This document shows, piece by piece, positions 18,889 through 28,956 of a DNA stretch of 64,000 nt. The DNA comes from Falsiroseomonas stagni DSM 19981 (GTDB lineage Bacteria > Pseudomonadota > Alphaproteobacteria > Acetobacterales > Acetobacteraceae), in NCBI RefSeq assembly GCF_900114315.1, contig NZ_FOSQ01000002.1, forward strand, positions 248,001 to 312,000, in the 5' to 3' direction. Both the position numbers and the translations under genes were made by a program. Below the pieces are notes generated by a model that saw only the letters and a list, made by a program, of their open reading frames with translations, made no database searches and was not told the DNA's origin. Position 1 is the stretch's first letter, and each line of letters opens with the position of its first letter.

Positions 18889-20658
18889 TCAGGCGGCCGG
18901 GACCGGCTCCGGCCCCGTCAGCTGTGTCTTCACCAGTTCGGCGAAGCGCCCACCCTGCGCGACCAGAGCCTCGAAACTGCCGCGTTCCGCCACCTTGCCA
19001 TGCTCGAAGACCAGGATCTCATCCGCATCGCGCACGGTGGACAGGCGGTGGGCGATGACGAAGGTGGTGCGGCCCGTCATCAGGGCCTTCAGCGCCCGCT
19101 GCACCCGCGCTTCCGTCGCCGCGTCCAGCGCGCTCGTCGCCTCGTCCAGGATCAGCACCGGCGGGTCTTTCAGCAGCGCGCGCGCGATCGCCAGGCGCTG
19201 GCGCTGGCCGCCGGACAGGGCGGCGCCGCGTTCCCCCACCATCGTGTCGTAGCCCTGCGGCTTGGCGGTGATGAAGTCATGCGCCTCCGCCATCCGGCAG
19301 GCACGCTCCAGATCCTCCTGGCTCGCATCCGGCCGGCCGATCAGCAAATTGTCGCGGATGGAGCGGTTGAACAGCAGGCTTTCCTGGAACACCACGCCAA
19401 CGTTGCGCCGCAGGCTGTCGAGCGTGAGGTCGCGAAGGTCATGCCCATCCAGCGTCACACGGCCTTCCACCGGGTCCCACAGCCGCTGCAGCAGCGCCAT
19501 GGCGGTGGATTTGCCCGCGCCGGTCTGGCCCACCAGCGCTATGGTGCGCCCGGGCGGGGCATCCATCGACACATCGGCCAGGATGCGCGGCCCGCCGGGA
19601 TAGGCGAAGGCCACATTCTCGAACCGCACGGCGCCAGTCACGCGCTGCAGGTCCTTCGCATCCGCCTTCTCCGCGACGGAGGACCGGGCATCCAGAACGG
19701 TGAAGAACTCCTCCAGCGACGGCATCTGGAACACGAGGCGGGACACGAAGCCGACGGCCCCTTCCAGCCGCCCGATCAGCAGGGTGGCGAAGCCCATGAA
19801 GGACACGATCTCACCGACCGTCGCCTGGCCACGCACATGCAGCATGGTGCCCAGCACGAAGACGGCGATGACGGTGATGGTGGAGGCGCCGCGCGTCAGC
19901 ACCGCGACCACCGCCCACCAGTTCAGCACCGGGAACTGGTGGTCCAGCACCTGCCGGACAATGTCGCCGAACAGCCTGGCCTCGCTGGCCAGGCGGGAGA
20001 AGGACTGCACGACGACGACATTGGACAGGGCGTCCTGCGCATTGCCGGCCAGCCGCGTGTGCAGCGTCTCCACCTTGCCCTGAGCGGCCTCGGTCTTCCG
20101 GATCACCCAGGCGGAGACGATGGCGAAGAGGATCACCAGCACGATGAGCAGCAGGCCGAGCCGCCAGTTCATCACCAGCGTCAGCGGCAGCAGCACCAGG
20201 CAGGCGATGAAGGTGGTCAGATGTTCGCGGAAGAAGGAAAGCCACAGGCCGAACAGATTGTCCGACCCCACCAGCATCACCTTCATCAGCCGGCCGGATT
20301 GCGTGTCCCCGTGGAAGGACAGGGGCAGCGACAGCACATGTTCGAAATACCGCGCCATGATGGTCAGGCGGTTGCGATGGGCCATGCGGTCCGACAGCAG
20401 CGCCACCGCGACATTGGCGCCGATGGCCGAAAGCCCGACCGCGGCCCAGAGGCCGAGCAGCGCGAAGGCTTCCGTCCAGAGCGCCGCGTCCGACATCCGG
20501 TCAGACCGCGACAGCAGGTCGATCACCCGCCCGAAGAGCACGGGCTCCAGGAAGGACAGTCCCGCCAGCGCGAGCGCCGCGAAGGTCAACCCATAGGCTA
20601 CCCAACGGTCCGGGCCCAGCAGCCGGAGCACCCGCAGGTAGAGCCTCATGAAACGCAT
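18889..20658 (-). CDS. NdvA/ChvA-type glucan ABC exporter (fused permease-ATPase)
   Basis: A 589-residue half-transporter with an N-terminal ABC membrane domain of six helices (about 20-310) and a C-terminal ATPase: Walker A GQTGAGKST (377-385), signature LSGGQ (481-485), Walker B VLILDE (501-506). Length and the opening RLYLRVLRLLG resemble NdvA/ChvA, the alphaproteobacterial exporter of cyclic beta-1,2-glucan. The ATG at 20658 has GGAGGGG 8 bases upstream; a second ATG lies three codons later. No cyclic-glucan synthase (NdvB) gene is present in the window, so the substrate remains inferred; lipid or other polysaccharide export is possible. Confidence 0.85.
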   Translation of the reverse strand: MRFMRLYLRVLRLLGPDRWVAYGLTFAALALAGLSFLEPVLFGRVIDLLSRSDRMSDAALWTEAFALLGLWAAVGLSAIGANVAVALLSDRMAHRNRLTIMARYFEHVLSLPLSFHGDTQSGRLMKVMLVGSDNLFGLWLSFFREHLTTFIACLVLLPLTLVMNWRLGLLLIVLVILFAIVSAWVIRKTEAAQGKVETLHTRLAGNAQDALSNVVVVQSFSRLASEARLFGDIVRQVLDHQFPVLNWWAVVAVLTRGASTITVIAVFVLGTMLHVRGQATVGEIVSFMGFATLLIGRLEGAVGFVSRLVFQMPSLEEFFTVLDARSSVAEKADAKDLQRVTGAVRFENVAFAYPGGPRILADVSMDAPPGRTIALVGQTGAGKSTAMALLQRLWDPVEGRVTLDGHDLRDLTLDSLRRNVGVVFQESLLFNRSIRDNLLIGRPDASQEDLERACRMAEAHDFITAKPQGYDTMVGERGAALSGGQRQRLAIARALLKDPPVLILDEATSALDAATEARVQRALKALMTGRTTFVIAHRLSTVRDADEILVFEHGKVAERGSFEALVAQGGRFAELVKTQLTGPEPVPAA

Positions 20659-20706
20659 GAACCGCGCCCCTCCATCCCGCCCCGCGCGTATCCCGAGTCC
20701 AGGCCG

Positions 20707-20754
20707 GCTGGCAAATGCGGTGTAGCACGCCCGCCCATGCCGCCGCTTGCCAGC
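20707..20754. repeat. Inverted repeat in divergent promoter region
   Basis: GCTGGCAA (20707-20714) is repeated in inverse orientation as TTGCCAGC (20747-20754), 32 bases apart, in the 204-base region between the divergent NdvA-type gene and the Bug gene. The spacing would suit a looped or dimeric regulator site, but no factor can be named. Confidence 0.35.
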
Positions 20755-20862
20755 AAAGCCTATCTTGCGGCAGGAACGGCGTGGAAGCGGTGGAGCGGGA
20801 CGGAAGTTCCCGCGCCCGCTGCGCGCGGCACCGCGCCGCGCGTCATCGAGGAGGACATCGTC

Positions 20863-21876
20863 ATGCGCATTACCCGCCGCGCCACCCTGGCCACTGCCCT
20901 GGCCCTTCCCTTCGCCGCCCCCGCTTTGGCCCAAGGCACGAGCGCCGGGACCTCCTGGGCCGCGGGCCGGCCCATCCGCCTGGTCGTCGGCTTCACCCCG
21001 GCCGGCACGACGGACATCGCCGCCCGCCTGCTGGCCGAACCGCTCGGCCGCCGCCTCGGCACGCAGGTCGTGGTGGAAAACCGCCCCGGCGCCGGCGGCA
21101 ACATCGGCAACCAGGTGGTCGCCCAGTCGGATCCCGATGGCCACACCCTGCTGATGCAGACGATCAGCGGCGGCGCCATCAACTACTCCCTCTACGGCGC
21201 CCGCATGCCGGTGAAGCCGGAGGATCTGGCGGCCGTCGCGCTGATGCTCCGCGTGCCGAACGCCATCTTCGTCAACCCGCAGCTGCCCGCGCGCACGCTG
21301 CAGGAACTGGTGGCACTGGCGAAGGCCCGCCCCGGATCCCTCAACATCGGCTCCTCCGGCGCCGGCACCTCGCTGCACATGACCGGCGAACTGCTCAAGC
21401 TGGAAGCGGGCATCGACATGGCCCATGTCCCCTTCCGCGGCGCCGGCCCGATGATGCAGGAGATCATTGCCGGCCGCGTGGAGGTGGGGGTGGACAATTT
21501 GCCCTCCGTCATCGGCCATCTCCGCGAAGGCCGCCTCCGCCCGCTGGCGGTCACGACGCGCGAACGCAGCCCCGCCATGCCCGATGTGCCGACCACCGCG
21601 GAAGCCGGCCTGCCGGGCGTGGAGGCGACCGCCTGGTTCGGCCTGCAGGCCCCCGCGCGCACCCCGGCTGCCATCATCCAGCGCATCTCGGACGAGGTGA
21701 ACGCCATCATCCGGGACCCCGACATGGCCCGCCGCCTCGCCGACCTCGGCGGCATGGCGCCCGGCCTGACGCCCGATGGCGGCACCAGCCCGCAGACCTT
21801 CGACGCCTTCATCAAGGCGGAGATCACGAAGTGGGGCGAGGTCGTCCGCCGCTCCGGCGCGACGGCCGACCAGTAG
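20863..21876 (+). CDS. Bug/TctC-type solute receptor
   Basis: A 337-residue Bug receptor with a twin-arginine-like signal peptide (MRITRRATLATALAL...PALAQ, 1-24). The core motifs are IRLVVGFTPAGTTDIAARL near 38, VVVENRPGAGGNIGNQVV near 68, HVPFRGAGPMMQEI near 187 and PDVPTTAEAGLPG near 240. GAGGAGG lies before the ATG. A TauD-like gene starts 11 bases after its stop, so the imported compound may be the substrate of that enzyme. No tctA/tctB neighbours are present. The C-terminal GTSPQTFDAFIKAEITKW is typical of the family. Confidence 0.93.
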   Translation: MRITRRATLATALALPFAAPALAQGTSAGTSWAAGRPIRLVVGFTPAGTTDIAARLLAEPLGRRLGTQVVVENRPGAGGNIGNQVVAQSDPDGHTLLMQTISGGAINYSLYGARMPVKPEDLAAVALMLRVPNAIFVNPQLPARTLQELVALAKARPGSLNIGSSGAGTSLHMTGELLKLEAGIDMAHVPFRGAGPMMQEIIAGRVEVGVDNLPSVIGHLREGRLRPLAVTTRERSPAMPDVPTTAEAGLPGVEATAWFGLQAPARTPAAIIQRISDEVNAIIRDPDMARRLADLGGMAPGLTPDGGTSPQTFDAFIKAEITKWGEVVRRSGATADQ

Positions 21877-21887
21877 GCGGAGCGGCG

Positions 21888-22922
21888 ATGCAGGACCTGT
21901 CACCGATCGGCGGCGCCGTGGCCTGGACGGGCGCGACGCTCGGCGACTGGTCCGTCACCCTATCGCCCGCGGAGATCGCGGAGATCGAGGCAGCGCTGCG
22001 CGGCCTCGGCGACCGCGACATCCCCCGCATCACCGCCGCGCACTTCCCGCTACCCCGCACGGCGCCCCGGCTGAAGGCCCTGGCGGCGGTGGCGGAAAGC
22101 GGCGCGGGTGTGGTTCGCCTCGGCGGCCTCGACCCCGGGCGGTATCCGGCGCGGGACCTGAAGCGCCTGTTCTGGGGGCTGATGTGCCATATCGGCACAC
22201 CCCTGCCCCAGAACACGACCGGGGAGGTGCTGGGCGAGGTGAAGGATGAGACCGGCACGGGGGAGGCCCGCGCCGAGGGCTCCGCCCGCAACCGCAGCCG
22301 CTCCACCGGCCCGCTACGCTTCCACACGGACAAGTGCGACCTGCTGGCGCTGCTCTGCGCCAGCAACGGCATCGCGGGCGGCGTCTCCCGCATCGTGTCC
22401 ACCATCGCGATCCATGACGCCCTGGCACAACGGCGGCCGGACCTGCTGGCCGTGCTCTACCAGGATTTCTGGCGCGCCCGCCCGGCGGATGAGGAGGGCG
22501 AGGGCATGGCAGCCCGCCCCTTCCCCATGCCGGTCTTCGCCCGCGGTCCCACAGGCGCCTTCACCTGCCAGTACAGCCGCACCTATGTCGAGATGGCGGA
22601 GCGCCAGCCCGGCGTACCGCCCCTGACGGCCCCGCAGGTGGAGGCGATGGACATGCTGGCCGCGCTGGCCGACGAACTCTGCGTGGAAGCGCCCTTCGAG
22701 GCCGGGCAGATCCAGATCATGAACCAGCACGTCACGCTGCATGGCCGCACCGCCTATGCGGATGACGCAGCCGCGGGCGCCAGGCGCAACCTGCTGCGCA
22801 TCTGGCTGTCCAGCCCGCTGTCCCGCGCGCTCCCGGCCGGCCATGCGGGGCAATGGGGCAGCACGGAGGCCGGCGCGCTGCGGGGCGGCGCCATGCCGGG
22901 GCGGAGCGCGATCGCGGCCTGA
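21888..22922 (+). CDS. TauD/TfdA-type Fe(II)/2-oxoglutarate dioxygenase
   Basis: A 344-residue non-haem iron oxygenase of the TauD/TfdA family. The metal triad is visible: His146 and Asp148 (FHTDKCD) and distal His285 (NQHVTLHGR), with Arg304 (RRNLLRIWLS) placed to bind 2-oxoglutarate. The segment GLMCHIGTPLPQN near 97 is typical of this subgroup, which is often annotated only as TauD-like. Such enzymes hydroxylate sulfonates, phenoxyacids or amino-acid derivatives. It lies 11 bases after one Bug gene and 56 bases before another, suggesting that one or both receptors supply its substrate. Confidence 0.88.
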   Translation: MQDLSPIGGAVAWTGATLGDWSVTLSPAEIAEIEAALRGLGDRDIPRITAAHFPLPRTAPRLKALAAVAESGAGVVRLGGLDPGRYPARDLKRLFWGLMCHIGTPLPQNTTGEVLGEVKDETGTGEARAEGSARNRSRSTGPLRFHTDKCDLLALLCASNGIAGGVSRIVSTIAIHDALAQRRPDLLAVLYQDFWRARPADEEGEGMAARPFPMPVFARGPTGAFTCQYSRTYVEMAERQPGVPPLTAPQVEAMDMLAALADELCVEAPFEAGQIQIMNQHVTLHGRTAYADDAAAGARRNLLRIWLSSPLSRALPAGHAGQWGSTEAGALRGGAMPGRSAIAA

Positions 22923-23983: not shown

Positions 23984-26383
23984 TCACAGCACCCAGTCAT
24001 CATCCGCGATGCGCCCGATGCCGAGCGCATCGGCGATCGTCGCGCCGCTGGCGGAGAAGAGTTCCAGCCTGAACTCCTCCGCCCGCTCCGCGACCTCATC
24101 CGCGCGGATCTCGACCTCGATCACCTGCCGCGTCTGGCCGGGCTGGAAGGTGAGAACGCCGGAGGCGTGGACATAGTCCGTCGCATCGGCCGTGCCCGGC
24201 GCGGTGCGCCAGCCCACCGTCACGGGGCTGCTGACGGGATCGCTCAGCGTCACCGTGAAGCTCGCCTTGCGCACTGCCTCCGCGGGGTCTGGCAGGATCT
24301 CCTCGATCGCCGCGATCTTCTCCGTCAGCACCGTCTTCCAGTCATCGGCCAGGATGCCGCCCGTGTCGCCGGAATTGGGGTTCCAGGACCACCAGGCATA
24401 GGAAACACCCGGGCCGGCGATGTCCTTGTCCCCATCCGCATCCACGTCGCCCGACATGTAGTCGACGATCTTCTCGAGCCAGGCGCGATCCTTCGGATCC
24501 GTCATGCGGGTGCCGAATTCGCCGACGAAGATCGGCGCCGTCCCGCTCTCCCACAGATAGCCCCACATCCTGTCGAACAGGTCGGGCAGCTTGGCGGCGA
24601 AATCGGCGCCCTGGAAGAAGGGCTGCGCATAGACAGAGTTCGGATAGTCATGCGGCGAATAGACCAGCTTGTTGGCCACGTTCAGCTGCACCGGCCGTTC
24701 CGCGGCCCCCATCAGGTTGCCACCCCACCAGTAGTAGTTGTTCTGATGCTCGGCCACGCCCTCGACGAAGATCAGCCAGTCCGGGTTCTTCGCCAGGGCC
24801 GCATTGCCCGCGAGTTCCGCGGCACTCGCCCAGGCATTCCAGCTCGCGCCATGCGGTTCGTTGCTGAGGTCGGCGCCGATCACCGTGGGGTCGCCGGCGT
24901 AGCGGCTGGCCAGCATCTCCCACATCCCGACCCATTGCGCCTGGGTGTACCCGCCATCGAACCACAGGCCGTTGCCGTTCGGCCCATTGCCGGCGGCACT
25001 GCGATGGTGGTCGAGGATGATGCGAAGCCCGATATCGCCGGCATAGTCGACGATCCGGTCCATGATCTGCAGCGGCGTCAGCCCGGCCAGGTCCGGGTTG
25101 AGGTTGAAGTTGATGCCGTTCGGCGTGCCGCCCTTCAGCACCGATTCCGCGCTGAAGGGCAGGCGGATGGCGTTGAAGCCCGTCTCCGCCATCTGGTCCA
25201 TCATGTCCTTCCAGTTGCGGACATCGAGGCCATGCGGCGCGAAGGTCGTGCCCTCCATCCCGAACCAGTTCACCGCGGCGATCTTCACGGCCTGGCCGGT
25301 GGCGTCGACGATGTCGCGCCCCCTGGTGGACAGCACGCCCACCATGCCCGGCGCCCCCGGGTCGCCTTCCTGCACCGCCGCATCGGCGATGGCGATGCGC
25401 GGGCGGTCATTGTTGACGATGGTGCCGATGCCGGTGCCATCGGCGATCACGCCGCGTTGGGGTGACGACAGCGTCAGCACCACCGTCTCATCCATCTCCA
25501 CCAGGCGGTCGCCGATGACGGTGATGTTGACGGTCCTCTCGGTCTGGCCGGCGGCGAAGCTGACCTTGCCGCTGCGCGCGACGAAGTCCACGCCGGATTG
25601 CGCCGTGCCGCCGCTGGTCGCGAAGCTGACGGAGACGGTGCTGGTCATCGCCTCCGCCAGCGTCACCTTGAAGGCCAGGATCGTGTTGCCGCTGTTGCCT
25701 TCCACCACCGAGGCGTCGGAGACGGAGAACCGCGCCGCGTCATCGTCGCGGAGGGTGGCGACGCCGGTATTGTCCGCGATCGTCGCGCCCGTGGCGCCGC
25801 TCAGCCGCAGGCTGAAGCTCTCGGTGGCCTCGAAGACCCGGTCATTGGTCAGCGCGACGGAGACGCGCTTCACCGTCTCCCCCGCCGCGAAGGTCAGGCC
25901 GCCGCTCAGCGCCGAGAAGTCCAGGCCCGACCTGGCCGTGCCGCTCACCGTCGCGAATTGAACGGTGACGGGACCGGTCGCGGCGGCGGAGAGCTTCACC
26001 TCGAAGGTCGCGAAGCCCGCGCCTTCCAGCACCTCCACATCGCCGACGCTGAGGCTGGGCGGCGCGGGGGGCACGGGTGGCAGGCCGGCCGCGCCACCCA
26101 GGGTGAAGCCCGCCGGGTCCGCGATGGCGCCGGGGCCTGAAGCGCTGAAGCCGAAGCTGATCGTTCCCCCGGCCGGTGCCGTGCTGTTCCAGGATTGGCC
26201 GCGCACGAGGTAGCGGCCGGCGGAGACGCTGACGATCTCCGCCCCCCAGATGCTGTCGATCGCAAAGGCACCGTCGAAGGCCAGGGTCAAGCCATTCAGC
26301 GCGGCATCGGGCGTCAGCGTCACCTGGCCGACGAAGCCGGTGCTCCAACTGGCGGTGCGCTGGAACAGGATCTGAGCGGGCAT
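23984..26383 (-). CDS. CBM2 / Calx-beta / GH5 glycoside hydrolase (copy A)
   Basis: A 799-residue modular enzyme with no N-terminal signal peptide. Residues 1-97 form a CBM2-type carbohydrate-binding module (WSTGFVGQVTLTP, SIWGAEI, NSTAPAGG). Calx-beta domains occupy about 109-215 and 217-326. A third Calx-beta begins at 327 (RIAIADAAVQEGD), is interrupted by a complete GH5 cellulase-type domain (about 347-697), and resumes at about 703 (KASFTVTLSDP) to 796. GH5 residues are intact: DHHRS (458-462), acid/base Glu509 in NEP, nucleophile Glu622 in GEFG. The protein ends DDDWVL, resembling short C-terminal type I secretion signals. Likely secreted and acting on beta-glucan or cellulose. It is the downstream member of a tandem pair, and an AT-rich promoter-like region precedes it. 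Confidence 0.9.
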   Translation of the reverse strand: MPAQILFQRTASWSTGFVGQVTLTPDAALNGLTLAFDGAFAIDSIWGAEIVSVSAGRYLVRGQSWNSTAPAGGTISFGFSASGPGAIADPAGFTLGGAAGLPPVPPAPPSLSVGDVEVLEGAGFATFEVKLSAAATGPVTVQFATVSGTARSGLDFSALSGGLTFAAGETVKRVSVALTNDRVFEATESFSLRLSGATGATIADNTGVATLRDDDAARFSVSDASVVEGNSGNTILAFKVTLAEAMTSTVSVSFATSGGTAQSGVDFVARSGKVSFAAGQTERTVNITVIGDRLVEMDETVVLTLSSPQRGVIADGTGIGTIVNNDRPRIAIADAAVQEGDPGAPGMVGVLSTRGRDIVDATGQAVKIAAVNWFGMEGTTFAPHGLDVRNWKDMMDQMAETGFNAIRLPFSAESVLKGGTPNGINFNLNPDLAGLTPLQIMDRIVDYAGDIGLRIILDHHRSAAGNGPNGNGLWFDGGYTQAQWVGMWEMLASRYAGDPTVIGADLSNEPHGASWNAWASAAELAGNAALAKNPDWLIFVEGVAEHQNNYYWWGGNLMGAAERPVQLNVANKLVYSPHDYPNSVYAQPFFQGADFAAKLPDLFDRMWGYLWESGTAPIFVGEFGTRMTDPKDRAWLEKIVDYMSGDVDADGDKDIAGPGVSYAWWSWNPNSGDTGGILADDWKTVLTEKIAAIEEILPDPAEAVRKASFTVTLSDPVSSPVTVGWRTAPGTADATDYVHASGVLTFQPGQTRQVIEVEIRADEVAERAEEFRLELFSASGATIADALGIGRIADDDWVL

Positions 26384-26429
26384 CGGCAGGCCATCCAGGG
26401 GTGCAAGCTGAGGCTTGATCCCATGGCGG

Positions 26430-26508
26430 CCACCAATGGTAAAGTTTCATTTTACACTATTTGTCTCAATAATCGCGTTTTACGACAATTCTCGAATAAC
26501 GATACGCC
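26430..26508 (-). promoter_or_regulatory. AT-rich island with inverted repeat upstream of GH5 copy A
   Basis: This stretch is markedly AT-rich compared with its surroundings and lies in the 125-base gap between the two GH5 genes. It contains an inverted repeat GTAAA (26439-26443) and TTTAC (26451-26455) seven bases apart. I find no convincing -35/-10 pair at standard spacing. It probably holds the promoter and an operator for copy A, so that copy A is controlled separately from copy B. Confidence 0.5.
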
Positions 26509-28956
26509 CTAAAGGGCCCAGTCAGATGCCGCGAGCCGCGCCGCGGCCACCCCCGCATCATCGTCCAGGATTGTTGCCACGCCGATACCGTCCCCGATCG
26601 TCGCGCCGCGGGCCTGGGACAGTTCCAGTTCGAAGGTCTCCGTCCCTTCCCCCGCCTCATCCGGCCGCAACGCCACCGCGATGCGCTTCACCGTCTCACC
26701 CGGCGCGAAGGTCAGCACGCCAGTTGCCGCCACGAAGTCGCTCTCGGCGGCTGTGCCGGGCCGGGTCCGCCAGTTGACCGAAACCGGCGCCGCCGCTGCC
26801 TGGCTGAGGCTGACGAGGAAGACGGCCTCCGCCGGTGCCTCCGCGACGCCGGGCATGATCGGCGCCAGCCGGTCGGTCTTGGTGGTCAGCACCGTCTCCC
26901 AGTCATCCGCCAGGATGCCGCCCGTGTCGCCGGAATTCGGGTTCCAGGACCACCAGGCGAAGGATGCCGCGGGGCCGGCGATGTCCTTGTCCCCATCCGC
27001 ATCGACGTCGCCGGAGAGGTAGGCGATCAGCTTGTCCGCCCAGGCCTGGTCCTTGGGGTCCACCAGGCGGGACCCGAATTCGCCCATCAGCACCGGCGCC
27101 GTGCCTTCGCGCCACAGGTAGCCCCACATCTTGTCGAACAGGCCCGGCAGGTTGGCCGGGAAGTCCGGGCCCTGGAAGAAGGGCTGCGCATAGACCGAAT
27201 TCGGGTAGTCGTGCGGCGAATAGACCAGCTTGTTCGCGACGTTCAGCTGCACCGGCCGTTCCGCGGCCCCCATCAGGTTGCCGCCCCACCAGTAGTAGCT
27301 GCCATTGTGGTCGCCCACGCCCTCCACCAGCACCAGCCAGTCGGGGTTGGCCGCCAGCACGGCATTGCCCGCGCGTTCCGCCGCCCCGGCCCAGGCGTTC
27401 CAGGCCACGTTGTGCGGTTCATTGTGCAGGTCGGCGCCCACTACGGCGGACCCGCGGTAGCGCACCGCCAGATCCTCCCACATGTCGATACACCGCGCCT
27501 CGGTGAAGCGCCCATCGTACCAGAGGCCGTTGCCGTTGGCCCCGTTGCCGGCTGCACTGCGGTGGTGGTCGAGGATGATGCGCAGCCCGATCTCCCCGGC
27601 ATAATCGACGATCCGGTCCATGATCTGCAGTGGCGTCAGCCCGACCAGATCCGGGTTCAGGTTCCAGTTGATCCCGTTCGGCGTGCCCCCCTCCTGCACC
27701 GCCTGGGCGGAGAAGGGCAGCCGGATCGCGTTGAACCCCGTCTCCAGGATCTGGTCCATCATGTCCCGCCAGTTGCGGGTGCCGAGGCCGTGCGGCGAGA
27801 AGGTGCTCGTCTCCAGCCCGAACCAGTTCACGGCCGCCAGCTGCACGGCATTGCCCTGCGCATCGACGATGCTGCCGCCGCGGGTGGACAGCACCCCCTC
27901 GGGCGGCGCCAGGCCGGCGAAGGGATCGCCTTCCACCACGGCCGCCGCATCCGCCACCGTGATGCGCGGCAGGTCGTTGTTGATGATGGTGCCCGTTGCC
28001 TCCGCATCGCTGTAGGCGGCGCGGACCGGATTGGTCAGCCGCAGGAGGAAGCTCTCATCCGCCTCCACCTGCGTGTCGCCATTGATGGTGATGCGGATGG
28101 TCTTGCTCAGCTCGCCAGGCTGGAAGGACAGCGTACCGCTGCGGGCAACATAGTCGCTGCCGGCCAGGGCGGGGCCGTCCGCCGTCTGGAAACGGGTGGA
28201 GACCACGACATCCTGCGCCTTCGACAGCGACACGGCGAAGGTCATCACCCTTGTGCCGGCATTGCCTTCCGTGACGCTGGCATCGGCCACGCTGAAGCGG
28301 GCGATGTCGTCATCCTCGATGGTGGCGATGCCCTGGCCATCGGCGATGGTCGCGCCCGTGGCGCCGGTCAGGTTCAGCAGGAAGCGTTCCGCCTGCTCCC
28401 GCGTGGCATTGTCCACCAGGCCGACGGAGACGACCTTGCTGGTCTCCCCCGCCGCGAAGGTGATGCTGCCGGTCGCCGCGCGGTAGTCGCTGCGGGCCAG
28501 GGCCGTGTCGTTGGCGGTGGCGAAGGTCACGGTGACGGGCGTCGCGCTGGCCTTGGACAGCGTCAGCACGAAGCGCGCCGCGCCATCATGCTCCCACGCC
28601 AGCACATCGCCGACGGACACTGTCGGCAGCACAACGACAGGCGGCGGGGGCAGCGCCACCGCGCCCGGCGCTGCCAGCGTGAAGCGGGACGGATCGGGCT
28701 CGGGACCCGTCGTCGCCGCCTGGAAGCCGAAGCCGATCTCCCCGTTCCAGCCTGTCGCGTTCCAACTCGCGTTGCGGATCGTGTAGACGCCGTCGAGGAA
28801 GGAGACGATTTCCGCCCCCCAGATGTTCACGATGCTGAAGCCCGCATCGAAACGCAGGGTCCATCCGTTGAGGGTCGCCTCCGGCCGCATCGTCACCTGC
28901 GCGACGAAGCCCGTGCTCCATTCGCTGGACCTTGTGACGCTGAACTGCGTGGGCAT
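26509..28956 (-). CDS. CBM2 / Calx-beta / GH5 glycoside hydrolase (copy B)
   Basis: An 815-residue paralogue of copy A with the same order. CBM2 spans 1-95 (WSTGFVAQVTM, NIWGAEI, ATGWNGEIGFGF). Calx-beta domains span about 112-217 and 219-328. A third starts at 329 (PRITVADAAAVVEGD), is split by the GH5 domain (about 353-702), and resumes at about 711 to 800. Catalytic residues are Glu513 (NEP) and Glu626 (GEFG), with DHHRS at 463-467. It ends SDWAL, again an acidic residue followed by hydrophobic ones. There is no N-terminal signal peptide. GGGGGAG lies upstream of the ATG at 28956. The GH5 halves of A and B are far more alike than their CBM and Calx-beta parts. Confidence 0.9.
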   Translation of the reverse strand: MPTQFSVTRSSEWSTGFVAQVTMRPEATLNGWTLRFDAGFSIVNIWGAEIVSFLDGVYTIRNASWNATGWNGEIGFGFQAATTGPEPDPSRFTLAAPGAVALPPPPVVVLPTVSVGDVLAWEHDGAARFVLTLSKASATPVTVTFATANDTALARSDYRAATGSITFAAGETSKVVSVGLVDNATREQAERFLLNLTGATGATIADGQGIATIEDDDIARFSVADASVTEGNAGTRVMTFAVSLSKAQDVVVSTRFQTADGPALAGSDYVARSGTLSFQPGELSKTIRITINGDTQVEADESFLLRLTNPVRAAYSDAEATGTIINNDLPRITVADAAAVVEGDPFAGLAPPEGVLSTRGGSIVDAQGNAVQLAAVNWFGLETSTFSPHGLGTRNWRDMMDQILETGFNAIRLPFSAQAVQEGGTPNGINWNLNPDLVGLTPLQIMDRIVDYAGEIGLRIILDHHRSAAGNGANGNGLWYDGRFTEARCIDMWEDLAVRYRGSAVVGADLHNEPHNVAWNAWAGAAERAGNAVLAANPDWLVLVEGVGDHNGSYYWWGGNLMGAAERPVQLNVANKLVYSPHDYPNSVYAQPFFQGPDFPANLPGLFDKMWGYLWREGTAPVLMGEFGSRLVDPKDQAWADKLIAYLSGDVDADGDKDIAGPAASFAWWSWNPNSGDTGGILADDWETVLTTKTDRLAPIMPGVAEAPAEAVFLVSLSQAAAAPVSVNWRTRPGTAAESDFVAATGVLTFAPGETVKRIAVALRPDEAGEGTETFELELSQARGATIGDGIGVATILDDDAGVAAARLAASDWAL

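Follow-up and report, generated by a model that had tools for sequence, protein, structure and literature searches.

A stretch of 64,000 nucleotides from Falsiroseomonas stagni DSM 19981 (contig NZ_FOSQ01000002.1, positions 248,001 to 312,000; hereafter the window) carries two neighbouring genes, A and B, whose products contain a catalytic domain of glycoside hydrolase family 5 (GH5). The two are paralogues on the minus strand, 61.6% identical over 802 columns, and have their domain order in common: a CBM2, two Calx-beta domains, a short Calx-beta piece (the N-piece), the GH5 domain and a longer Calx-beta piece (the C-piece). An earlier sequence-only reading of this DNA had taken the two pieces for a single, third Calx-beta domain into which the catalytic domain is inserted; both genes lie where it had placed them, and the motifs it quoted are found at A330 and A709 and at B332 and B713. 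Judged from the sequences, this nested architecture is real and conserved. It is quite probable that A and B are exported endo-beta-1,4-glucanases whose GH5 domain sits in the last Calx-beta domain, which would close around it as a split host clasped by Ca2+.

Domain layout of A and B

The GH5 domain is whole in both proteins (Pfam PF00150, 162.6 bits in A and 154.2 bits in B, profile positions 1-272 of 272), and both contain the NEP and GEFG motifs that carry the catalytic glutamates of such enzymes. Compared with E1 (1ece), A scores 337.3 bits, which makes the GH5 domain a putative E1-like endoglucanase; E1 itself belongs to subfamily GH5_1. The CBM2 profile (PF00553) is matched in both proteins above its cut-off of 24 bits (Table 1). 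On a local Calx-beta profile, described below, the first two Calx-beta domains span positions 1-112 and 3-111 or 4-111, and the third match is the C-piece alone, which begins directly after GH5 and covers positions 14-111 in A and 19-112 in B; with Pfam PF03160 the C-piece scores 52.5 bits in A and 51.7 bits in B (cut-off 27). The chain of this third domain is not continuous, being broken by about 350 residues of GH5. Its strand A sits across GH5 from the C-piece, as placed by the local profile and by predicted strands, and is given no credit by Pfam.

Table 1. Features of genes A and B in the window and the Microvirga gene cluster discussed in the text
Feature	Position	Strand	Residues	Description
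Gene A	23984..26383	(-)	799 aa	CBM2, Calx-beta 1, Calx-beta 2, Calx-beta 3 split by GH5
A CBM2	26087..26374	(-)	4-99	Pfam CBM_2, 46.8 bits
A Calx-beta 1	25736..26062	(-)	108-216	complete; local profile 1-112, 136.6 bits
A Calx-beta 2	25406..25732	(-)	218-326	complete; local profile 3-111, 117.9 bits
A Calx-beta 3 N-piece	25361..25402	(-)	328-341	predicted strands 329-332 and 335-338; conserved Glu339
A GH5 catalytic domain	24293..25339	(-)	349-697	Pfam Cellulase, 162.6 bits, profile 1-272/272; Glu509 (NEP), Glu622 (GEFG)
A Calx-beta 3 C-piece	23996..24265	(-)	707-796	strands B-G; Asp736, Asp762, Glu766, Glu769, closing DDD
A C-terminal tail	23987..23995	(-)		WVL after closing DDD; tail motif, putative export signal
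Gene B	26509..28956	(-)	815 aa	architecture as A
B CBM2	28672..28932	(-)	9-95	Pfam CBM_2, 41 bits
B Calx-beta 1	28303..28629	(-)	110-218	local profile
B Calx-beta 2	27973..28296	(-)	221-328	local profile
B Calx-beta 3 N-piece	27925..27969	(-)	330-344	predicted strand 331-334; conserved Glu342
B GH5 catalytic domain	26854..27897	(-)	354-701	Glu513 (NEP), Glu626 (GEFG)
B Calx-beta 3 C-piece	26557..26826	(-)	711-800	strands B-G; closing DDD 798-800
B C-terminal tail	26512..26526	(-)		SDWAL; tail motif, putative export signal
Microvirga zambiensis cellulose-synthase cluster	L015:6001-13164 with L024:145-8466			between nested and free GH5 genes

A Calx-beta domain in two pieces

The proposal that the third Calx-beta domain is nested around GH5 was borne out by local-profile scores, by residue conservation and by predicted strands. 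Because PF03160 alignments to these proteins begin at position 3 to 24, we built a local profile that covers the whole length of the domain, using up to 24 ordinary, complete Calx-beta domains of the GH5 proteins in this set, with the split domains masked; for each protein scored, the domains of its own locus were removed and those of sister species remained. The N-piece matches positions 2 to 15-21 of this profile. Joined to the C-piece, it outscores the C-piece alone in all 21 proteins scored, with gains of 3.0-16.0 bits (the pieces at loci L014 and L017 were re-cut by hand, and a truncated copy of gene B at L009 was left out), and joining shifts the start of profile coverage from position 17-20 to 2-3. 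The joined domain also scores above the C-piece with its natural upstream residues in 21/21 proteins. When random GH5 windows stood in for the N-piece, the joined score was reached in 0/200 trials in 17 of the 21 proteins, and 1, 3, 12 and 23 times in L009, B, L032 and L031, respectively; shuffled N-pieces reached it in 0/200 in 14 proteins, and in the remaining seven they did so between 1 and 18 times (B 1, L009 5, L031 5, L032 18).

In 15 aligned split domains, drawn from 20 prepared by omitting five close relatives of others, no variation is seen at Val10 and Glu12 on the N side of the insert or at Asp51, Asp77, Glu81 and Glu84 on its C side (Val337, Glu339, Asp736, Asp762, Glu766 and Glu769 in A), and a closing [DN]DD is present in 12. 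Over all split members examined the pre-insert Glu is found in 34/39 (31/35 plus 3/4 plasmid loci); Val10 is variable outside the 15 rows, being Leu in L014 and Ala in one of the copies at L011. The part after the insert aligns to the Calx-beta domains of Na/Ca exchangers, and the alignments shown begin after the N-piece. We take the conserved acidic residues to be the Ca2+ ligands of the exchangers and Glu12 to be their strand-A' ligand; if they are, the conservation suggests a single Ca2+ site that draws its ligands from both sides of the insert.

An AlphaFold2 model of A322-799 (27 sequences; predicted local distance difference test, pLDDT, 88.7; predicted template modelling score, pTM, 0.77) places strands at A329-332 and A335-338 ahead of GH5 and six more behind it, starting at A706; a strand assignment implies a partner strand. 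In a model of the whole of B (13 sequences), the intact Calx-beta domains have strands at 112-115/118-121 and 220-223/226-229 before strand B, a 4-2-4 pattern that the N-piece strands of A follow; the split domain of B has a strand at 331-334 and then merely two residues, 340-341. Among 50 Foldseek rows against the PDB, GH5 enzymes stand on top and no Calx-beta chain is among the matches listed, so that this comparison is silent on Calx-beta packing.

But how could a domain of this size be accommodated? The mechanism we consider most likely is a Ca2+ clasp. The last Calx-beta domain would hold the whole GH5 (beta/alpha)8 barrel in the loop that connects its strands A' and B; the ends of such a barrel lie near each other, so that two short tethers may be enough to seat it there, with A/A' and B-G still closing into a single sandwich. 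Of the acidic ligands, the first (Glu339 in A, Glu342 in B) would precede the insert and the remaining ones would follow it (in A Asp736, Asp762, Glu766, Glu769 and DDD794-796), and with ligands from both sides Ca2+ would clasp the two parts of the domain to each other when the chain has left the cell. The CBM2 would bind cellulose, the other Calx-beta domains would serve as a stalk, and the enzyme would act on cellulose, possibly the producer's own. Calx-beta 3 and GH5 are linked by tethers of 9+9 residues in A and of 11+9 residues in B, and two such short tethers plausibly limit GH5 movement in these proteins. Over the nested open reading frames (ORFs), tethers range from 8 to 20 residues on the N side (31/35 measured) and from 6 to 26 on the C side (34/35), up to a Gly-rich 20+26, with a content of Gly, Ser, Thr, Pro, Asn and Asp of 0.71 and 0.61, respectively; the longer tethers argue against a fixed pose as the general purpose of nesting.

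Relatives, the GH5 cassette and a putative export tail

Homologues sharing the insertion point, the search for which the sequence-only reading had suggested as a check, were found in three sets of sequences. From 44 loci came 50 GH5 ORFs, 20 of them split at the same point, in addition to L051, where an N-piece is visible at the contig end; 42 further loci gave 39 new ORFs, with 9 split, 4 with an eroded N-piece and 2 fragments showing the N-piece; and in a plasmid search that matched 60 records, 4 were examined, of which 3 are split (Azospirillum lipoferum, Azospirillum B510 pAB510a and Roseibium) and 1 is eroded (pAB510d). Among the 20 is the copy of B in a relative (L009:3749-6022, 757 aa), which ends early inside the C-piece through either decay or an assembly error. 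In the members L084, L091-L093 and L108 the Ca2+ site may have been lost while the nested order persists; in L108 an Asp replaces the Glu. Split members occur in Acetobacteraceae/Roseomonadaceae, Microvirga, Methylobacterium, Chelatococcus, Skermanella, Acuticoccus and Planctomycetota. GH5 matches at E <= 1e-40, split or not, were found in 5/15 genomes of the genus, 28/200 of the family and 7/385 of the class.

Other relatives have the same GH5 behind a complete Calx-beta domain ('tandem', 12 tree rows) or without any Calx-beta ('free'). We labelled the nested, tandem and free members by eye on a tree of 86 GH5 domains, from which five fragments (L050 twice, L051, L076, L077) and five exact duplicates had been removed beforehand and in which four eroded members were counted as nested. 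The nested label needs 12 changes on this tree, at least 8 of them forced by well-supported branches; it is clustered (0/500 shuffles as low), yet it does not form a single clade. Such a scattered yet clustered distribution points to an old arrangement with repeated loss or gain. The arrangement had been called old and stable: its age is upheld by its recurrence in Planctomycetota and several alphaproteobacterial families, and its stability is not borne out, given the 12 label changes and the tandem and free relatives. Resolution is poor in a tree of 118 Calx-beta domains (93 columns); its starred branches force just 2 changes, and it cannot settle the number of insertions.

Are other enzymes found inside the Calx-beta loop? 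Of 60 genomes of the order, 5 have a Calx-beta match at E <= 1e-6, and no catalytic domain lies within a Calx-beta domain in the five proteins examined by Pfam, namely four further Calx-beta proteins from two of these genomes and a long Calx-beta protein that the source genome has besides A and B. In other parts of the chain, two of the five contain an endo/exonuclease-phosphatase domain and one contains an M23 peptidase. In relatives, two long RTX proteins (L119:2060-6361 and L120:2625-6533) have a complete Calx-beta domain together with an endonuclease/exonuclease/phosphatase domain.

Nested and free GH5 genes can be compared within Microvirga species. In M. zambiensis the nested gene L015 and the free GH5-cadherin-RTX gene L024 lie on one contig with 97.0% DNA identity over 1060 bp; within the stretches compared, this match coincides with the GH5 domain and does not extend beyond it. 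M. sesbaniae has a pair with 100% over 1054 bp on one contig (L014/L029), in which L029 ends at the contig end, so that an assembly effect is possible; a free copy stopping there resembles an assembly break at a repeat. The pairs of M. pudoricolor (L012/L022, on different contigs) and M. lupini (L019/L026) are 82.0% identical over 998 bp and 75.8% over 959 bp. On the GH5 tree, the nested and free copies of M. zambiensis, M. sesbaniae and M. pudoricolor are sisters within their species, and those of M. lupini are not. Identity confined to GH5 is what gene conversion or recent swapping of a GH5 cassette would give.

The two M. zambiensis genes stand at the ends of a cellulose-synthase cluster, in which the genes run along a single strand as nested GH5, an RTX protein (EglC match below cut-off), BcsA (870.6 bits, TIGR03030), BcsB, a GH8 protein (BcsZ-like, below the equivalog cut-off), a TPR protein and the free GH5. 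The order nested GH5 - RTX - BcsA - BcsB is common to M. sesbaniae and M. lupini, and the gene order at L014/L029 and L019 is similar to that of the M. zambiensis cluster. No other split-GH5 locus in the set searched (the window, L009-L052 and L105-L108, with the short loci L053-L104 outside the search) matched these Microvirga genes within the stretch covered. The source genome has two BcsA-type synthases above cut-off, on contigs other than that of A and B.

Substrates of type I secretion characteristically have an acidic-aromatic-hydrophobic tail at the C terminus and no N-terminal signal. Among 645 mechanically called ORFs of at least 150 aa in the window and loci L009-L032, a C-terminal [DE][WF][VIAL][LIVM] occurs in 12, every one of them a nested GH5 protein, A and B included. 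The tail is present in 13/35 nested ORFs and in none of the planctomycetal ones. A hydrophobic run of 9 within the first 50 residues was seen in 0/35 nested rows, a weak test in which 5 rows were cut at the start and some obvious signal peptides of free relatives were missed. An RTX protein ends in ADFIL, and a 1331-aa protein of the source genome, built from Calx-beta domains without other Pfam domains (L117:604-4599, G000:C37), ends in ADWVL, much like A and B. The 9 ORFs tested around A and B encode mostly transporter parts, plus peptidases and a dioxygenase; no type I exporter was found beside the two genes.

Competing explanations and significance

Several points weigh against an exported, Ca2+-clasped split host. 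With Pfam PF03160 the joined pieces score slightly below the C-piece alone (51.0 vs 52.5 bits in A, 49.4 vs 51.7 in B), an outcome that the sequence-only reading had itself named as evidence against nesting, and the N-piece by itself gives no Pfam match in A or B. L031 and L032 do not stand clear of the GH5-window and shuffle controls. Gains in the split domains (median 9.6 bits) are smaller than in ordinary domains (median 21.8, range 15.2-25.9, n=24), in a comparison in which the cut points differ and the ordinary domains have nearer kin in the profile. The 15 aligned rows were selected with a motif requiring the Glu, and five relatives that have a C-piece (L084, L091, L092, L093 and L108) have an eroded N-piece without it. 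The presumed correspondence of Glu12 to an exchanger ligand lies outside the exchanger alignments, which start only after the N-piece. The whole-B model is weak (pLDDT 71.2, pTM 0.45), and the models show strands, from which the pairing of strand A with the C-piece in one sandwich would follow by inference. As to export, the tail is absent from 22/35 nested ORFs, the sole PrtD-type exporter above cut-off in the genome lies on contig C26, away from A and B, and the ABC exporter gene nearest to A (18889-21903, minus strand, some 2 kb away from where A ends) matches a glucan exporter (NF010178, 801.2 bits, cut-off 733; TIGR01192, 593.2 bits, cut-off 585.4), with type I models far below their cut-offs. 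Since the one PrtD-type exporter is distant and the gene near A matches a glucan exporter, type I secretion of A and B is a route that we infer.

The nesting could be real and still be neutral baggage, an old insertion that was tolerated since the ends of the barrel are close and that has no role in Ca2+ binding or orientation. This would explain why free and tandem relatives manage without it, why the nested label changes 12 times on the GH5 tree, why the linkers of some members are long and Gly-rich and why five relatives have lost the Glu. However, acidic residues on either side of the insert are conserved across two phyla, and A and B retain the arrangement at 62% identity, so that we consider neutrality possible but on the unlikely side. 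Much less probable is a tandem order, in which the Calx-beta domain behind GH5 is a separate one, shortened at its N terminus, and the stretch ahead of GH5 is a linker or what is left of another Calx-beta domain. The Pfam score, which is no higher on joining, the five relatives that keep the C-piece though the N-piece is eroded, and the 12 rows of genuine tandem relatives with Calx-beta before GH5 and none after would all fit such an order, but in the proteins scored the C-piece begins at strand B, its natural upstream residues score below the N-piece as strand A in 21/21 of them, and the N-piece Glu is kept in 34/39 split members from Planctomycetota to Alphaproteobacteria. Hardly credible, finally, is an N-piece strand that serves as the N-terminal cap strand of this GH5 subgroup's fold: the 381-residue crystallised fragment of the endoglucanase CelE2 (PDB 8fc0) does start at this strand, but the close free relatives L022, L024, L026 and L029 have no such strand before GH5, so that the N-piece does not appear to be part of GH5, L024 and nested L015 share their 97.0% DNA identity over the GH5 cassette only, and the N-piece fits the first positions of the Calx-beta profile.

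A split host closed by Ca2+ could also be part of a broader scheme, which we put forward tentatively and with more doubt than belief. The A'-B loop would be a natural plug-in site for enzymes, GH5 a recombining cassette, and the Ca2+ clasp a lock that is open in the cell while the chain is exported and shut outside it, where Ca2+ would complete the sandwich across the insert and hold the barrel in place. In Microvirga, where the cassette seems to pass between the nested and the free RTX-type gene that flank a cellulose-synthase cluster, the device may trim the cell's own cellulose.

How does this arrangement compare with known systems? In GH30, GH39 and GH51 enzymes, a beta-sandwich is built from both chain ends, and the strands flanking the barrel close into one sandwich as proposed for A and B. 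There, however, the sandwich is integral to the enzyme family, whereas the host in A and B is a separate Calx-beta module and the same GH5 is also found free. The nearest solved structure among the matches listed is 8fc0 of CelE2, a metagenome-derived GH5 endoglucanase (phmmer 442.7 bits over A331-694; Foldseek TMt 0.93-0.94, 52-54% identity). Like A and B, its chain begins at Calx-beta strand A with the Glu present; unlike them, the solved chain ends after GH5, with only the N-side strand visible. The nested arrangement apparently exists in CelE2 too. The titles of Pimentel 2017 and 2023 speak of an unconventional architecture and of the Calx-beta domain in CelE2.

The pairing of GH5 with Calx-beta is already in print, for CelE2 and for Azospirillum (PMC3245306); the latter paper, in its accessible text, calls GH_5 - CalX-beta a unique architecture of Azospirillum and gives it as a linear order. 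The Azospirillum plasmid loci L105 and L106 have the same split Calx-beta around GH5 as A and B and, unlike them, no complete Calx-beta upstream; going by the plasmid names, they would be AZOLI_p10561 and AZL_a06890 of that text. Excerpts of three further papers bear on the arrangement. Calx-beta is listed among the domains that accompany glycoside hydrolases (PMC6626019). GH10 xylanases (Pm25) with CBM4 modules inserted in the barrel (PMC7848910) resemble A and B as carbohydrate enzymes with nested rather than in-line modules, and are their mirror image in that the barrel is the host and the CBMs are the guests. A survey that reports insertions in 20% of multidomain proteins has TIM barrels among the preferred hosts (PMC13114784), whereas the barrel is the guest in A and B. 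Our literature search, with most subscription journals and the CelE2 papers outside its reach, found no description of a GH5 domain inside Calx-beta; as far as searched, the nesting is a new reading of a known pairing.

A catalytic barrel would here be hosted by a small Ca2+-binding sandwich, an arrangement retained in two phyla and one that profile libraries render as GH5 beside a shortened Calx-beta domain. Constructs cut at Pfam borders, whether GH5-only or Calx-beta-only, would part strand A from its domain. If the Ca2+ clasp is true, it would tie export, Ca2+ and the assembly of the enzyme together in a simple and testable way, and could serve as a natural model for designing domain insertions.

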